Source: Methylovirgula ligni (lineage in GTDB: Bacteria > Pseudomonadota > Alphaproteobacteria > Rhizobiales > Beijerinckiaceae). From it: 64,000 nt of DNA. Position numbers and translations under genes: made by a program. The stretch spans positions 2,232,001-2,296,000 of the forward strand of contig NZ_CP025086.1 in the NCBI RefSeq assembly GCF_004135935.1, given 5' to 3'. Below, piece after piece: positions 36,907 to 59,779 of this stretch; the first letter of the stretch is position 1, and each line of letters opens with the position of its first letter. The notes beneath the pieces were generated by a model, which ran no database searches, was not told the origin of the DNA, and saw only the letters and a program-made list of their open reading frames with translations.

Positions 36907-37341
36907 ATGCAGGCTGATTCATGCAGCGATCACTCCTTTCTGCGGGCGAAGGCCATTGCGGACGGGATCATGGACGTGGCAGCTGAATTGCGGCTGATGA
37001 ACGCCGCCGATTACATTTCCTTCATTCATCTTGAGCAGTTCAACAACATCCGCGACATCGTCAATTCCTCGATGGAGCTTTATTTCAAGCACGGCACCCT
37101 GTCTTACGGATGCTCCGCCGATTACGAGCTTGAATGGGATCGCCCGCCTTCGATCCTCCTCGATCTCGAGTTTCGCCATCATGAGATATCGGTGCGGTTC
37201 AACCTTGTCCTGAAGGCCGCCCACGCGAGCGTGGAAATCTGCGATATTTCCTTCGCCTCGGGGGCGCAGGATGAGGCGGATGTCACGCGCCGTCTCGTCG
37301 CGGCGATTGCCGACGCCAGGCTGCCCACACGGCCCTGCTGA
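36907..37341 (+). CDS. unknown protein in the flagellar operon
   Basis: I do not recognise this 144-residue protein. It has no signal peptide or membrane segment. The N-terminal half looks helical (AKAIADGIMDVAAELRLMNAADYISFIHLEQFNNIRDIVNSSMELYF, split), and the second half beta-rich (LSYGCSADYELEWD...PSILLDLEFRHHEISVRFNLVL). Four cysteines are scattered. It lies 10 bases after flhB and 72 bases before flgB. A conserved spot in a flagellar operon suggests an assembly or regulatory role, but that is inference only. Confidence 0.7.
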   Translation: MQADSCSDHSFLRAKAIADGIMDVAAELRLMNAADYISFIHLEQFNNIRDIVNSSMELYFKHGTLSYGCSADYELEWDRPPSILLDLEFRHHEISVRFNLVLKAAHASVEICDISFASGAQDEADVTRRLVAAIADARLPTRPC

Positions 37342-42345: not shown

Positions 42346-42837
42346 ATGGCTGAGGCCGACGAATTTGGCGGAGAGGCATCTGCGGCGATAAAGCTGCAGA
42401 CGTTTCCGGCCCTGATTCCGTGGCTCGCGACCATGGCAGGGCTAAGTCTCTTTGCCATACTCGTCGGTGGAATGCTTGGCTTCGTCATGGTCTCGACTGT
42501 GCGCAGCAGCGCACGCAACGCAGCGGATCCGGCGGTTGCTCCTGCTACGAAGCTCATCGATTTGCCGCCCATCGTCACCAATCTCGCCGATCCGTCCAAT
42601 ACCTGGGTGCGCCTGCAGACCGCGATCGTCGTCGATGCAAACCCGGATGTGAAGCCGGACGTGCTCGCCGCCGAAATCTCGGACGACCTTCTCGGATTCA
42701 TGAAGACCGAATCGCTTGCCCAGATCGGCGGCGCGAGCGGCCTTCAGCATTTGCGCGAGGATTTGACCGAGCGCGCGGTGATCCGCTCGCAAGGGCATGT
42801 TCGGGAGCTGATCATTCAAACCCTGGTGGTGCAGTGA
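42346..42837 (+). CDS. fliL: flagellar basal body-associated protein FliL
   Basis: FliL surrounds the stator and stabilises it under load. The 163 residues have an N-terminal cytoplasmic stretch, one membrane helix (about 25-47, WLATMAGLSLFAILVGGML), and a periplasmic domain with LPPIVTNLADPSNTWVRLQTAIVVD and an acidic helix before RSQGHVRELIIQTLVVQ. Its stop overlaps the fliP GTG start. Confidence 0.93.
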   Translation: MAEADEFGGEASAAIKLQTFPALIPWLATMAGLSLFAILVGGMLGFVMVSTVRSSARNAADPAVAPATKLIDLPPIVTNLADPSNTWVRLQTAIVVDANPDVKPDVLAAEISDDLLGFMKTESLAQIGGASGLQHLREDLTERAVIRSQGHVRELIIQTLVVQ

Positions 42838-43580
42838 AGCGCTTGCTGTTTGCTCTGGCCCTGCTGCTCGTCTCGACAGCCGCCGCAATGGCTCAAACGC
42901 CGGACCTCAACGCGCTGCTCCCGCAGGGCGGCGGCAGCGCCGCCGCGCGGATCATCCAGCTCGTCGCGCTGCTGACGGTGCTCTCGGTTGCGCCGGGCCT
43001 GCTGATCATGGTCACGAGCTTCACGCGCTTCATTGTCGCGCTATCCTTCCTTCGCTCGGGTCTGGGCCTGCAGAGTACCCCGGCGAATCTGGTTTTGATC
43101 AGTCTGGCGCTGTTCATGACCTTTTATGTTATGGCGCCGACGTTCGATCGCGCCTGGCAGGACGGCGTCCAGCCGTTGATGGACAACAAGATCACCGAGC
43201 AGGTTGCGTTTCCAAAAATTATAGAGCCATTCCGCGTATTCATGATGCGGCAGGTGCGCGACAAGGATCTGAAGCTGTTTGAAGACCTCGCGCCGCCGGA
43301 TATCAAGCCGGCGCCGGACGCCAAGCCGGCGTCCGAGGTCGAAATCCGCATTCTCATTCCCGCCTTCATGATCTCGGAACTGCGGCGCGGCTTCGAGATG
43401 GGATTTCTGATCGCTCTGCCGTTCCTCGTTATCGACGTGGTCGTTTCGACGCTGACGATGTCGATGGGCATGATGATGCTGCCGCCCTCGGTCATCTCGC
43501 TGCCGATCAAGGTCCTCTTCTTCGTTCTCATCGACGGCTGGAACATGCTGATCGGCAGTCTGGTGCGATCCTACAGCTAG
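42834..43580 (+). CDS. fliP: flagellar export gate protein FliP
   Basis: FliP is a core of the export gate with FliQ, FliR and FliO. The 248 residues have a cleavable signal (LLFALALLLVSTAAAMAQ) and four helices, with TSFTRFIVALSFLRSGLGLQSTPANLVLISLALFMTFYVM (split) and the FELRRGFEMGFLIALPFLVIDVVV-like segment. The GTG at 42834 overlaps the fliL stop (GTGA) and is the only start that gives the signal peptide. Earlier in-frame codons lie in fliL. Confidence 0.96.
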   Translation: MKRLLFALALLLVSTAAAMAQTPDLNALLPQGGGSAAARIIQLVALLTVLSVAPGLLIMVTSFTRFIVALSFLRSGLGLQSTPANLVLISLALFMTFYVMAPTFDRAWQDGVQPLMDNKITEQVAFPKIIEPFRVFMMRQVRDKDLKLFEDLAPPDIKPAPDAKPASEVEIRILIPAFMISELRRGFEMGFLIALPFLVIDVVVSTLTMSMGMMMLPPSVISLPIKVLFFVLIDGWNMLIGSLVRSYS

Positions 43581-43611
43581 CGGCGTGCCATTGCAGACAA
43601 AGGTGAAGACT

Positions 43612-45315
43612 ATGGCAGGATCGATCATTTTCGCGGGCTGTGTGAGGGATTGCGCGCCGCATCTGCAGCAGGTGCTGGCGAATTGCGCCCGCCTCGCGAC
43701 GACGACCGAGAAAGCCTTTTTCCTGTTCGCGGAAAACGATTCGGTTGATGTCACCAAGGCGATCCTCGCAAATTGGTGCGAAGGGCGCGTCAATGCGCGT
43801 ATCCTGTGCTTCGACGGGCTTCACGCGCGTCTTCCCAAGCGCACGGAGCGCATCGCCTTTCTTCGCAATCAGATATTGGACTCCATCCGGGAGCAGGGCC
43901 TCACGGACTATGACGCCTTGTGCATATTGGACTTCGACGAGGTGAATGTCGGCGTCATCTCACCCGAAGGTTTCAGGGCGGCGGTGGAATTTCTGCTTTC
44001 CGCGCCGGAGAACGCCGGCGTCTTCGCCGTTTCCGACCCAATCTATTACGACATCTACGCGCTGCGGCACGAGCACTGGAGTCCCGGCGATTGCTGGAAA
44101 GCGGTTCGCGCCGCGCCCGAGGAGCGCAGGGCCGAAGTCTTCCAAAGCCTTATCTGCGACCGGCAGGTGCCGATCGCGAAGACCGCGGCGCCGATCGCGG
44201 TCGATTCGGCTTTCGGCGGCCTGGGGCTTTACCGGCTCGCCTATGCCCTGGAGGCGAGCTATCTCGGCCTCGATTCCGATGGCGAGGAAACCTGCGAGCA
44301 CGTGAGCTTCAATGCCGATATCCGGCAGCGCGGCGGCCAGCTCCACATTTTTCCGCGGCTGAGAAACAGCACGCCCTGGCAGCATTGCCTCAACGGCCGC
44401 GCGCAGAAAACCATTCGGCTCGGTAATGGCCCGCTGCAAATGGAATTGATCGCACCGCAATCGCATCAGCTCGATCAGTATTTGAGCAGCTATCCGCTTT
44501 ACGACCGGCGTCTGCCTCTGCTTCTGACCGTTTTCAATCAGGTCGTCGGTGCGGCCACCGTCCTCGATATCGGCGCCAACATTCTCGACACGATCGCCTT
44601 GATGCGGCTCAGCGGCGTCCAACTGACGAAATCCATTTCCGTCGACGCCGCGCTCGAATTCTATAAATATGCCGAGTTCAATGCGGCGCGAAATCCCGCC
44701 CTCGGCGCGACCAGCGAGATTGTCTGGGGCTTTGTCGGCGCCGAGGAGGATCGCGGCAATATCGCCGCCGTTAACGGCACCGGCAATGTGCGGGAGCTGC
44801 GGCATCGCGGGCAGTTGCAGGCTTTGCTGGAGCCGCGCCGCGTGACGTTTGCCGATCTCGCGCCGGATGGCGTCGATCTCGTCAAGACCGATGTCGACGG
44901 CTACGATCATGTGGTGATCCGCCAGAATCTCGCCTGGCTCAAGCGTTGGAAGCCGATGCTCTGGGTCGAAGCGCAGATCGAGGACGGCGTCGACATTTCC
45001 GCCTGGAGCGGCAATCTGCTCGCGCTGTCCGAGGATTTTCCCTATGTCGCCGCTTTCGACAATTTCGGTTTCTGCCTCTGCGCCGGCACGATGATCGACA
45101 AATGGAACACCGTCCTCGAGCTGATCTCCATTGGCGCGCGTTACAAGGCGCACGAAGTGAGCGCCGGCCGGCCGCGGTTCTATTATCTCGATATCCTGTT
45201 CGTTCCGCAGCGACTCGCGGAAGTCTTTCAGGAATTCGTCGGCGCGTTGCCGGAAATGAAGTTTACGAAGCAGACGCCTGTTCCGGTGAGGGAATATCAT
45301 GCCAAGGCCGGCTGA
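43612..45315 (+). CDS. glycosyltransferase/FkbM methyltransferase fusion in flagellar locus
   Basis: The 567 residues join two domains. The N-terminal half is a GT-A-like glycosyltransferase with a DxD-like DFDEVN (107-112), AFGGLGLYRL and EHVSFNADIR, recalling the GT69/CAP59 mannosyltransferase group. The C-terminal half is an FkbM-type methyltransferase with the SAM motif VLDIGAN (317-323) and DLVKTDVDGYD (422-432). ATG 43612 follows AAGGTGAAG. It sits 31 bases after fliP and overlaps a GT2-like gene that precedes flagellin, so flagellin sugar addition and O-methylation is the leading hypothesis. Family call by eye. Confidence 0.78.
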   Translation: MAGSIIFAGCVRDCAPHLQQVLANCARLATTTEKAFFLFAENDSVDVTKAILANWCEGRVNARILCFDGLHARLPKRTERIAFLRNQILDSIREQGLTDYDALCILDFDEVNVGVISPEGFRAAVEFLLSAPENAGVFAVSDPIYYDIYALRHEHWSPGDCWKAVRAAPEERRAEVFQSLICDRQVPIAKTAAPIAVDSAFGGLGLYRLAYALEASYLGLDSDGEETCEHVSFNADIRQRGGQLHIFPRLRNSTPWQHCLNGRAQKTIRLGNGPLQMELIAPQSHQLDQYLSSYPLYDRRLPLLLTVFNQVVGAATVLDIGANILDTIALMRLSGVQLTKSISVDAALEFYKYAEFNAARNPALGATSEIVWGFVGAEEDRGNIAAVNGTGNVRELRHRGQLQALLEPRRVTFADLAPDGVDLVKTDVDGYDHVVIRQNLAWLKRWKPMLWVEAQIEDGVDISAWSGNLLALSEDFPYVAAFDNFGFCLCAGTMIDKWNTVLELISIGARYKAHEVSAGRPRFYYLDILFVPQRLAEVFQEFVGALPEMKFTKQTPVPVREYHAKAG

Positions 45316-46102
45316 TCGCGGCATCGCCGTCGTCATCCCCTCGCGCCTCGCGGGCACGGCGCGCAAGCTTTTCGTCGAACAGGCGATCGGGGCGGCGAGC
45401 GAGCAGGCGATTCCACGCGGCATCCGTCTCGCTTTTTTCATCGGCATCGATCTCGACGCGCAGATTCCATCCTCGCTTGGCGCGCGTCCGGATGTGACCT
45501 TCGCACGTAGCACCGGGCGCGGTCAGGCGGCCGCCATCAACGCCGCCGCAAATGCAGCGGCAGCGCAAAATCACGATTTCATCGCCTTGCTCGAAGACGA
45601 TGATCAATGGGAGCCGAACTTTCTCGCCTGGGCGCTTGGCTGTCTTGAGACCTGCGATTTCGTCTCATCGAATCAGCTTGAGGTCGACGCCGAGGAGCGC
45701 TGCGTCCGGGTCAATGATTTTCCGACCCCTTCGGGCTGGATCATGGCGGCAGATCTCTGGCGCAAGGTGGGGCCATTCGACGAATCGCTGCGCTGGCACG
45801 TGGACAATGATTGGCTTGGCCGGCTCGCTTTGAGCGGCGCGCGAAGGGTCCATCTCGTCGAAGCGACGGCGCCGATAAATCTGCCGAGCTGCGCGCAGGT
45901 TCGTCCCTGGATCGCCAATGTCCTCACGCAGGGTGGCCCGACGAGTACGGTCCGGCGGCATCTGTCCTCCCGGCCCCTGGTGCGCCGCACCGTGCATCAA
46001 GGCTCGGGCATGCATCAAATCGCATGCAATCCGCTGGCGGCGGCGGAAAGTCAGAGCGAGTATCGTCAGCTGATTGCCCGCTATGGGCGAATTCCCTGGT
46101 AG
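45299..46102 (+). CDS. GT2-like glycosyltransferase upstream of flagellin
   Basis: The 267 residues have a GT-A fold: IAVVIPSRLAGTARKLFVEQAI at the start, STGRGQAAAINAAANAAA, the metal-binding ALLEDDDQWEP (EDDD at 99-102), and later PSGWIMAADLWRKVGPFDES...DNDWLGRLALSG as the acceptor-side acidic pair. No membrane segment or signal. It overlaps the upstream GT/FkbM gene by 17 bases and ends 164 bases before flagellin. A role in flagellin glycosylation is inference from position. Sugar and acceptor are unknown. Confidence 0.82.
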   Translation: MPRPADRGIAVVIPSRLAGTARKLFVEQAIGAASEQAIPRGIRLAFFIGIDLDAQIPSSLGARPDVTFARSTGRGQAAAINAAANAAAAQNHDFIALLEDDDQWEPNFLAWALGCLETCDFVSSNQLEVDAEERCVRVNDFPTPSGWIMAADLWRKVGPFDESLRWHVDNDWLGRLALSGARRVHLVEATAPINLPSCAQVRPWIANVLTQGGPTSTVRRHLSSRPLVRRTVHQGSGMHQIACNPLAAAESQSEYRQLIARYGRIPW

Positions 46103-46210
46103 CGTCGTCACGAAGGTGCGCTGCTTAAGTTTCGGGAAAGGTTTTCTCGTTAGTTTTGCCCCCACGGCAGGTTGGGAGTTGCAACCCAAAGGCATCAGGC
46201 CGCCCTGTCG

Positions 46211-46259
46211 TACCGGTAAATCCGGTATGTCCCGCAAGATTTGGCCAACACAAGGGACA
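46211..46259 (+). promoter_or_regulatory. flagellin mRNA leader with two hairpins, one pairing the ribosome site
   Basis: TACCGG (46211-46216), five bases, CCGGTA (46222-46227) make a tight hairpin. Directly after, TGTCCC (46228-46233) can pair with GGGACA (46254-46259); that second arm covers most of the likely AAGGGA ribosome binding site (46252-46257), 9 bases before the ATG. The fold could hold flagellin translation in check, a natural target for FlbT/FlaF. Pairing is seen by eye; stability not computed. Confidence 0.5.
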
Positions 46260-46266
46260 TACATCA

Positions 46267-47181
46267 ATGTCAAGTGATCTTCTTACAAACACGTCTGCTA
46301 TGACGGCGCTTCTCGCGCTCAATCAGACTCAGCAGACCCTCAATACCTACGAAAATCAGGTTTCGACCGGCTTGGCGATCTCTGGCGCCAAGGACAATGC
46401 CGCTTATTGGTCCATCGCCACGACGATGAACACGCAGGTCGGCGCTCTCGGCGCTGTCTCGAGCTCGCTTTCGGAAAGCGCCTCGATGCTGTCGACGATG
46501 ACCGCGGCGCTGAACCAGACAATCTCGATCGTGGATAACCTCCAGAACGATCTTCTGACCGCTCAGGATCTCGTTGCGAAGGGCGATACGACCGATCTGG
46601 CAAAAACCCAGGACGACATCGCTCAACAGCAGCAATTGCTTCTCAGCATCGGCAGCTCGTCGAACGTCAACGGCGTCAACTTCCTCGAAGCCACCGCCGG
46701 CGCGACGGTTCAATTGCTCTCGTCCTATGACACCAAGGCGGGCGCGAGCTTCATCACGATCGATACGGGTACGACGACTGCTCTTTTCAATACCGCTTCT
46801 ACCGGAGCGACGACGGGTATTCTCGGCGCCAAGGGTGCCGCTTATACAGCCTCTTCGATCCTGACCCTGGATGTCACCGCCGCCGGCGTCACCTCCGGCG
46901 ACATCGGCAACATGCTCACGGACGTGCAGACGGCTCTGAGCAAGATCACCGCCGCGGCCAGCAATGTTGGCGCGGACCAGAACAATGTCACCGCTCAGCA
47001 GACCTTCATCTCGAACCTCACGGATTCGCTGTCGGCTGCGGTCGGTTCTCTGGTCGACGCGGACATGAACCAGGCCTCGACGAAGATTTCGGCTCTGCAG
47101 GTTCAGCAGCAGCTCGGTGTCCAGGCGTTGGCGATTGCCAATTCCAACACCCAGCTCATCCTGAAGCTCTTCGGCCAATAA
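46267..47181 (+). CDS. flagellin
   Basis: Flagellin is the filament subunit. The 304 residues have conserved N-terminal D0/D1 helices (SAMTALLALNQTQQTLNTYENQVSTGLAISGAKDNAAYWSIA, split) and C-terminal D1/D0 helices ending QQLGVQALAIANSNTQLILKLFGQ. The middle is short and rich in Thr, Ala, Ser and Gly, with many possible O-glycosylation sites, and has no cysteine. ATG 46267 has AAGGGA upstream. A strong terminator follows, so it is a single-gene transcript or the end of one. Only one flagellin gene lies in this window. Confidence 0.96.
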   Translation: MSSDLLTNTSAMTALLALNQTQQTLNTYENQVSTGLAISGAKDNAAYWSIATTMNTQVGALGAVSSSLSESASMLSTMTAALNQTISIVDNLQNDLLTAQDLVAKGDTTDLAKTQDDIAQQQQLLLSIGSSSNVNGVNFLEATAGATVQLLSSYDTKAGASFITIDTGTTTALFNTASTGATTGILGAKGAAYTASSILTLDVTAAGVTSGDIGNMLTDVQTALSKITAAASNVGADQNNVTAQQTFISNLTDSLSAAVGSLVDADMNQASTKISALQVQQQLGVQALAIANSNTQLILKLFGQ

Positions 47182-59368: not shown

Positions 59369-59779
59369 ATGCGGATTTCGCTGCGCGCCGGGGAGAAGTT
59401 CTACATTAACGGCGCGGTTCTGCGGGTGGATCGAAAGGTCTCCTTCGAGTTGCTCAACGATGCGACCTTCCTGCTTGAAGCGCATGTGATGAACGTCGGC
59501 GACGTCACGACGCCGCTGCGCCAGCTCTATTTCATCGTGCAGATCATGCTCATGAACCCTGCGGACACGCCGGCTGCGGCGGAGACGTTCGATAAAGCGC
59601 TCGAGAATAGCCGAAGGATATTCCTCGATCCCCGCATATTGGCCGGGCTCAAAACGGCCGAGCAACTCGTCACGGAAAACCGGAAGTTCGATGCGTTGAA
59701 GACCATCCGCACTTTATTGCCGATCGAAGCTGAGGTTCTTTGCGAAATCAAAGAGCCGGTTGCGGGCGCTGCTGCCTAA
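59369..59779 (+). CDS. flbT: flagellin translation repressor FlbT
   Basis: FlbT binds the flagellin 5' leader and lowers its translation in Caulobacter; some relatives use it as an activator. The 136 residues match the family: MRISLRAGEKFYINGAVLRVDRKVSFELLNDATFLLE (split), LRQLYFIVQIMLMNP, LDPRILAGLKTAEQLVTENRKFDALKTIRTLLPIE (split). It follows flaF and precedes flgD by 11 bases. No other flbT is in the window. Confidence 0.95.
   Translation: MRISLRAGEKFYINGAVLRVDRKVSFELLNDATFLLEAHVMNVGDVTTPLRQLYFIVQIMLMNPADTPAAAETFDKALENSRRIFLDPRILAGLKTAEQLVTENRKFDALKTIRTLLPIEAEVLCEIKEPVAGAAA

Follow-up and report, generated by a model that had tools for sequence, protein, structure and literature searches.

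A glycosyltransferase-methyltransferase fusion and a second glycosyltransferase-like gene between fliP and the flagellin gene in Methylovirgula, with a possible role in flagellin decoration

Why should a flagellar gene cluster carry two genes for predicted glycosyltransferases, one of them fused to a methyltransferase-like domain, directly ahead of the gene for flagellin? This arrangement occurs in Methylovirgula ligni, where we analyzed a stretch of 64,000 nucleotides (the window; G000:C1:2232001-2296000) within a 3.3-Mb genome on a single contig. The genes of the cluster run in the order flhB, an unnamed 144-aa gene, flgB, flgC, (fliE), flgG, (flgA), flgI, (motE), flgH, fliL, fliP, GTM, gt2, fliC, fliF, (fliH), motB, (motC), and fliK, where GTM denotes the fusion and gt2 the second glycosyltransferase-like gene. 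Unbracketed names were assigned from Pfam families, with flgB, flgC, and flgG separated by order. The bracketed names are our assumption, made from position and the usual gene order; in the Pfam scan, the motE frame matched MgtE_N, whereas nothing was matched by those of fliH and motC. The unnamed gene (window 36907-37341), also without a Pfam match, is 78% identical in G005, another genome of the genus.

An earlier, sequence-only reading had noticed two genes between fliP and flagellin, a 567-residue fusion and an overlapping 267-residue GT2-like enzyme, and the Pfam matches of the flanking genes bear out this placement (Table 1). The upstream region of fliC is kept in all six aligned genomes, including one that lacks the pair, so that the pair is placed downstream of the fliP stop and ahead of the control region of fliC. 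The insert consists of GTM and gt2 only and holds no enzymes of sugar biosynthesis. The scanned neighbors of the pair (flagellar, regulatory, or unrelated genes, and some that matched nothing) likewise included none for sugar biosynthesis. A recent foreign origin in the window's genome was considered and was not supported, given GC contents of 0.608 and 0.639 for the two genes versus 0.624 for the window, although in G006 GC3 is lower in GTM (0.576) than in fliP (0.733).

Table 1. Features of the insert and its borders (window coordinates).
Feature	Coordinates	Strand	Basis or remarks
fliP	42837..43580	+	PF00813, 1.3e-72; directly upstream of GTM, 31-nt gap to the GTM ATG
GTM, 567-aa fusion	43612..45315	+	ORF; ATG at 43612, stop ends at 45315, 567 codons
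GT half of GTM	43612..44421	+	relative of stand-alone bacterial glycosyltransferases, most matching CAP59_mtransfer (PF11735)
MT half of GTM	44422..45315	+	FkbM-like; VLDIGAN (motif I), DLVKTDVDGYD
gt2, 267-aa glycosyltransferase family 2-like enzyme	45299..46102	+	ORF, 267 codons; EDDDQW, VDNDWLGR
fliC upstream/leader region, right border of module	46103..46266	+	six-genome alignment
fliC, proposed substrate	46267..47181	+	PF00669 and PF00700; ATG at 46267

GTM and gt2 are real, intact genes that evolve under constraint. The list of open reading frames begins the GTM frame at a GTG at 43585, and we used the ATG listed in Table 1. In random sequence of the same base composition, an open frame of 567 codons would arise at a given position with a probability of about 7e-8. 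The two genes overlap by 17 nt, from the gt2 ATG to the GTM TGA, and the overlap is identical in all four genomes that carry both. In the least saturated comparison (G000-G007), dN/dS was 0.126 for the glycosyltransferase (GT) half of GTM, 0.101 for the methyltransferase (MT) half, and 0.116 for gt2; the values for fliP and fliC were 0.071 and 0.068. The motifs on which the sequence-only reading relied were all recovered, with DFDEVN at residues 107-112, VLDIGAN at 317-323, and DLVKTDVDGYD at 422-432 of GTM and EDDDQW at 99-104 of gt2. The same reading had described a GT-A-like and an FkbM-like half in one protein, accompanied by a second GT-A-like enzyme. That description agrees with our analysis, which places the GT-A-like half of GTM at about residues 1-262 and the FkbM-like half at about 280-545. 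Neither protein has a clear hydrophobic or membrane segment (the highest 19-residue hydropathy was 1.59 for GTM and 1.13 for gt2, versus 2.39 for fliP), which is consistent with a cytoplasmic site of action, ahead of export.

To which family might the GT half belong? In a 12-row alignment, invariant positions were D107 and D109 (the DFD of DFDEVN), Y145, D147, S199-A200-F201, and H230. The family PF11735 (CAP59_mtransfer) matches 8 of the 12 aligned sequences at E<=0.1, with a best value of 8.6e-8, and the relative from Hoeflea scores 32.6 bits, above the cutoff of 28.8. The window's own GT half had no Pfam match, PF11735 included, so that what links it to the fungal CAP59/CMT1 mannosyltransferases of PF11735 is its relatives. 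We take these fungal enzymes to be GT69, and such kinship would presumably suggest a mannosyl-type donor. Structure models were built from three or four aligned sequences and were poor (mean pLDDT of 41.0 for GTM and 44.2 for gt2), with only the N-terminal Rossmann-like part usable. For that part of GTM, the best VIA-align matches were GT-A enzymes (5hea: Z of 11.1, rmsd of 2.0, 92 aligned), and RmlT of L. monocytogenes (8bz5) aligned with a Z of 10.2 and an rmsd of 2.9 over 95 residues. This low-confidence model suggests that the N-terminal fold of GTM is GT-A-like. Sequence searches of the PDB with the pair's proteins returned nothing useful.

The C-terminal half of GTM is FkbM-like, although it falls under the curated FkbM cutoffs. 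TIGR01444 matched GTM at 3.6e-7 with 30.7 bits (32.4 for the MT half alone), below its cutoff of 37.7, and PF05050 reached 14.5 bits against a cutoff of 22.7. Within the alignment of MT halves, TIGR01444 was found in 4/4 rows and PF05050 in 2/4, both at E<=0.1. FkbM family methyltransferases are expected to carry motif I and a K-x-D-x-[DE]-G motif, and both are retained. The MT half is also homologous to a protein that does pass the PF05050 cutoff, with 42.6 bits: the product of a separate methyltransferase gene in G542, a distant alphaproteobacterium (24% identity over 272 columns, 4e-18). For its part, gt2 resembles glycosyltransferases of family 2, with scores that are borderline against the Pfam cutoff. 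PF00535 gave 1e-4 and 22.7 bits against a cutoff of 23.3, whereas PF13641 gave 20.4 bits against 27 and matched all four aligned gt2 rows, with a best value of 3.3e-7. In structure comparisons, the best matches of the gt2 model were GtrB (9nyd: Z of 9.4, rmsd of 2.8, 119 aligned) mixed with IspD-type nucleotidyltransferases, and the fold is thus only suggestive.

How tightly is the pair tied to flagellin? We recovered fliP in 7 and fliC in 6 of 11 genomes of the genus, and the insert between them takes three forms at a single site, with both genes, one gene, or none. Four genomes (G000, G006, G007, and G010) read fliP-GTM-gt2-fliC, one (G003) reads fliP-gt2-fliC with a 24-nt gap from fliP, and one (G005) reads fliP-fliC. 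In each of the five genomes with gt2, the gene abuts that for flagellin, and no genome of the genus series was seen to have GTM alone. There was no GTM elsewhere in G003 or G005 (97 and 98% complete) and no gt2 elsewhere in G005, which keeps its flagellar cluster without the pair; the module is therefore not needed for keeping flagella. In G004, fliP lies at a contig edge and is uninformative, and in the four genomes where neither fliP nor fliC was found (73 to 84% complete), GTM and gt2 were also not found. A phylogeny from 660 columns of flgH, fliL, and fliP grouped G005 with G000 and G007 (support of 0.853) and G003 with G006 and G010 (0.999); the fliC tree instead grouped G006 with G003 (0.732). 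A single ancestral gain followed by two losses is about as parsimonious as several independent gains. G007 also holds two slightly different copies of the segment from fliL through fliP to the start of GTM (G007:C149 and G007:C39; L018 and L016), perhaps from two strains binned together.

Our searches of other genomes found the fusion and strong relatives of gt2 in this genus only, beside flagellin. Among 100 relatives, four (counting the window's own) had full-length fused GTM, and all four belong to the genus. The five strong gt2 matches in the same 100 were also from the genus, and three further genomes had weak matches of about 1e-4. A GTM profile matched 8 of 397 genomes of the order and 6 of 385 of the class, samples that did not include other members of the genus (the other three fused-GTM genomes among them), and no full-length fusion besides the window's own was found in either. 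Apart from the window's own genome, all seven matches in the order and four in the class were to the GT half only, and the fifth in the class was G542. At 1e-8, a gt2 profile matched only the window's own among the 397 genomes of the order. Within the family, fliP was found in 112 of 149 genomes. At the 24 loci obtained outside the genus, flagellin was next downstream of fliP in 15, once on the opposite strand, and neither GTM nor gt2 was found within 1.5 kb of fliP in any. Every genome with the fusion or a strong gt2 relative thus has it beside flagellin, as the sequence-only reading would predict, and the pair was not seen in polysaccharide loci.

The GT half by itself is another matter, since it does occur in polysaccharide-type or unrelated loci, as judged by eye (G021 L015, G396 L081, G304 L082, and Hoeflea L005). 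Flagellar genes were not detected, by eye or by tblastn with the window's flagellar proteins, at 12 GT-half loci (Hoeflea L005, G073, G021, G269, G344, G504, G396, G304, G598, G642, G745, and G744), a weak negative because the same tblastn missed a Pfam-detected flagellin in G542. The glycosyltransferase matches that profile searches gave in L015 and L093 were likewise missed in this check. In G542 (G542:C3, L090, 8791-10693), homologs of the GT half (1.9e-38) and MT half (6.8e-18) are adjacent separate genes, which argues that the two halves work together. The run to which they belong also has a DegT-like fragment, a polysaccharide flippase, an epimerase/dehydratase gene, and, judged by eye, a mutL-like gene; flagellin and fliD are about 5 kb away from the GT/MT pair. 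Viral contigs (IMG/VR) also frequently carried relatives of the GT half; there, 110 of 125 candidate stretches were confirmed and 80 were kept (L095-L174). No MT half was found in these 80 loci, with flanks of 3 kb at most, and MT and gt2 queries against the viral contigs found no relative.

Does flagellin itself bear a trace of the two enzymes? The sequence-only reading had pointed to the Thr/Ser-rich middle of flagellin. The enrichment is there (31% in the window), but it carries no weight as evidence for glycosylation, since G005, without either gene, has 32%. At no flagellin position was Ser/Thr present in the four GTM genomes yet absent from both G003 and G005. Ser/Thr occupies positions 4, 86, and 148 in all five genomes with gt2 but is missing there in G005 (numbered by the aligned G000 row, which has one extra leading residue; in G010, a contig end truncates flagellin). 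None of the three is strong, and chance or the tree can explain them.

Given the linkage to flagellin and the catalytic-type motifs, GTM and gt2 probably decorate the flagellar filament with a methylated sugar, a reading that we regard as plausible from sequence. More specifically, we give about an even chance to a two-gene decoration module acting in the cytoplasm. In such a module, gt2, as a soluble enzyme, would put the first sugar on Ser/Thr of flagellin before export. The N-terminal half of GTM would then add the next sugar, and the C-terminal half would O-methylate it and so cap the glycan. We infer that gt2 acts first because G003, a single genome, has gt2 without GTM, and by analogy with Clostridioides difficile. 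The fusion, together with the neighboring unfused genes of G542, supports the idea that transfer and methylation would concern one and the same glycan. A nonulosonic acid is an unlikely sugar because no NeuB was found in the window's genome, with the control positive in 9 of 14. PF01973 (Maf) was likewise not found there, in a search whose positive controls (4 of 14) were all archaeal, so that its sensitivity to bacterial Maf is not demonstrated. In favor of the module, an RmlC homolog is present in the genome. Several observations speak against the module: outside the genus, flagellar genes were not observed next to the GT half (G542 being a partial exception), the scanned neighbors included no sugar-biosynthesis gene, no Ser/Thr position tracks GTM, the MT half scores below threshold, the models are poor, and G005 is flagellar without the pair.

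The same linkage would also be expected if the order were reversed or the enzymes were independent, with GTM attaching a sugar directly to flagellin and methylating that sugar, and gt2 adding another sugar or serving another site. The existence of the GT half as a stand-alone enzyme elsewhere would suit this alternative, which we nevertheless consider unlikely, as gt2 occurs without GTM and never the reverse, although in one genome only. To a reading in which the enzymes act on surface polysaccharide, lipopolysaccharide, or capsule and are merely coexpressed with the flagellar operon, we likewise assign a low probability. The loci of the GT-half relatives and the company of the G542 genes lend themselves to it, but in the genus the pair was found solely between fliP and fliC and was not recovered from genomes that yielded neither of these two, and even the G542 pair is close to flagellin and fliD. 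Finally, the target might be another exported flagellar protein (a hook, hook-associated, or cap protein). The pair does stand at the end of a run of basal-body genes, after fliP, yet gt2 consistently abuts flagellin and there is no specific link to hook genes, which makes this quite improbable.

The decoration of flagellin by GTM and gt2 would have precedents. The sequence-only reading had thought a single polypeptide for transfer and methylation unusual, but as far as excerpts of two reports go, GT-methyltransferase fusions at flagellin loci are already known. In C. difficile, GT2, encoded beside fliC, joins a glycosyltransferase to a methyltransferase and has been proposed to attach rhamnose and methylate it; methyltransferase domains also occur in the GT41 enzymes of 194 enterobacterial strains (PMC5207246, PMC4875605). 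The C. difficile type B locus (GT1 and GT2, CDR20291_0241/0242) resembles ours in outline, with a plain glycosyltransferase and a fusion beside fliC. There, by the excerpted account, GT1 primes with GlcNAc, GT2 extends with rhamnoses, and methylation is proposed (PMC5207246), a priming-then-extension scheme like the one that we propose here. That locus has three glycosyltransferases of PF00535 and a methyltransferase of PF08241, whereas our fusion combines a CAP59-related GT half with an FkbM-like MT half, and, unlike there, we saw no further modification or rhamnose genes at the locus. The enterobacterial islands, as excerpted, are likewise strain-variable glycosyltransferase inserts at a flagellin locus and also include FkbM methyltransferases and fusions (PMC4875605). 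They lie between fliC and fliA, whereas our insert is on the fliP side of flagellin and, unlike them, has two genes only and none for sugar biosynthesis. Geobacillus islands, too, are described as including FkbM genes (PMC5109656). The Caulobacter FlmG/pseudaminic acid system is, like the one proposed here, an alphaproteobacterial and cytoplasmic O-glycosylation of flagellin, but is described as using NeuB (PMC7591256), of which the window's genome has no match.

What differs from known loci is therefore the CAP59-related glycosyltransferase, the FkbM-like methyltransferase, the minimal two-gene form, and the setting. Our literature searches found no relevant work on GT69 with flagellin, nothing on a bifunctional flagellin glycosyltransferase with FkbM, and, judged by title, no Methylovirgula flagellar work on this subject; a search combining FkbM, glycosyltransferase, flagellar, and Rhizobiales returned enterobacterial work only. 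We suggest, tentatively and with more doubt than confidence, that the locus represents a flagellin O-glycosylation undescribed in the papers found. It would combine a family 2-like primer with a bifunctional CAP59-related transferase/FkbM-like O-methyltransferase that arose by fusion of adjacent genes, and would place an O-methylated, possibly mannose- or rhamnose-type sugar on the filament, with no nonulosonic acid, in one methylotroph genus. If true, this order of Alphaproteobacteria would have a flagellin-glycosylation route without nonulosonic acid. The genus would offer a natural experiment (none, one gene, or both) on what each sugar and the methyl group contribute to assembly of the filament, to surface properties, and to recognition involving plants or phages. 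The glycosyltransferase family frequent in viral contigs would, moreover, gain a first functional hypothesis.

The flagellin leader that borders the insert has features of its own. At window positions 46167-46269 there are inverted repeats (GGCAT-GCC, CCGG-CCGG, and ATGTCCC-GGGACAT) that are conserved and also occur in loci of the family Beijerinckiaceae. The GGCAT hairpin was present in 22 of 23 flagellin leaders. An alignment of 20 of the 23 (the second L050 copy, L058, and L066 were dropped) had 13 predicted pairs, of which only one was changed on both sides, so that covariation support is weak, and between 45900 and 46500 there was no Rfam match at E<=1. The ATGTCCC-GGGACAT repeat pairs with the presumed Shine-Dalgarno sequence GGGA, forming an 8- to 9-bp stem in all six genomes of the genus. 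FlbT, which has been proposed to bind the flagellin 5' untranslated region (as excerpted from a review, PMC4347634), is encoded in the window at 59369-59779 and is a possible partner of this conserved leader.
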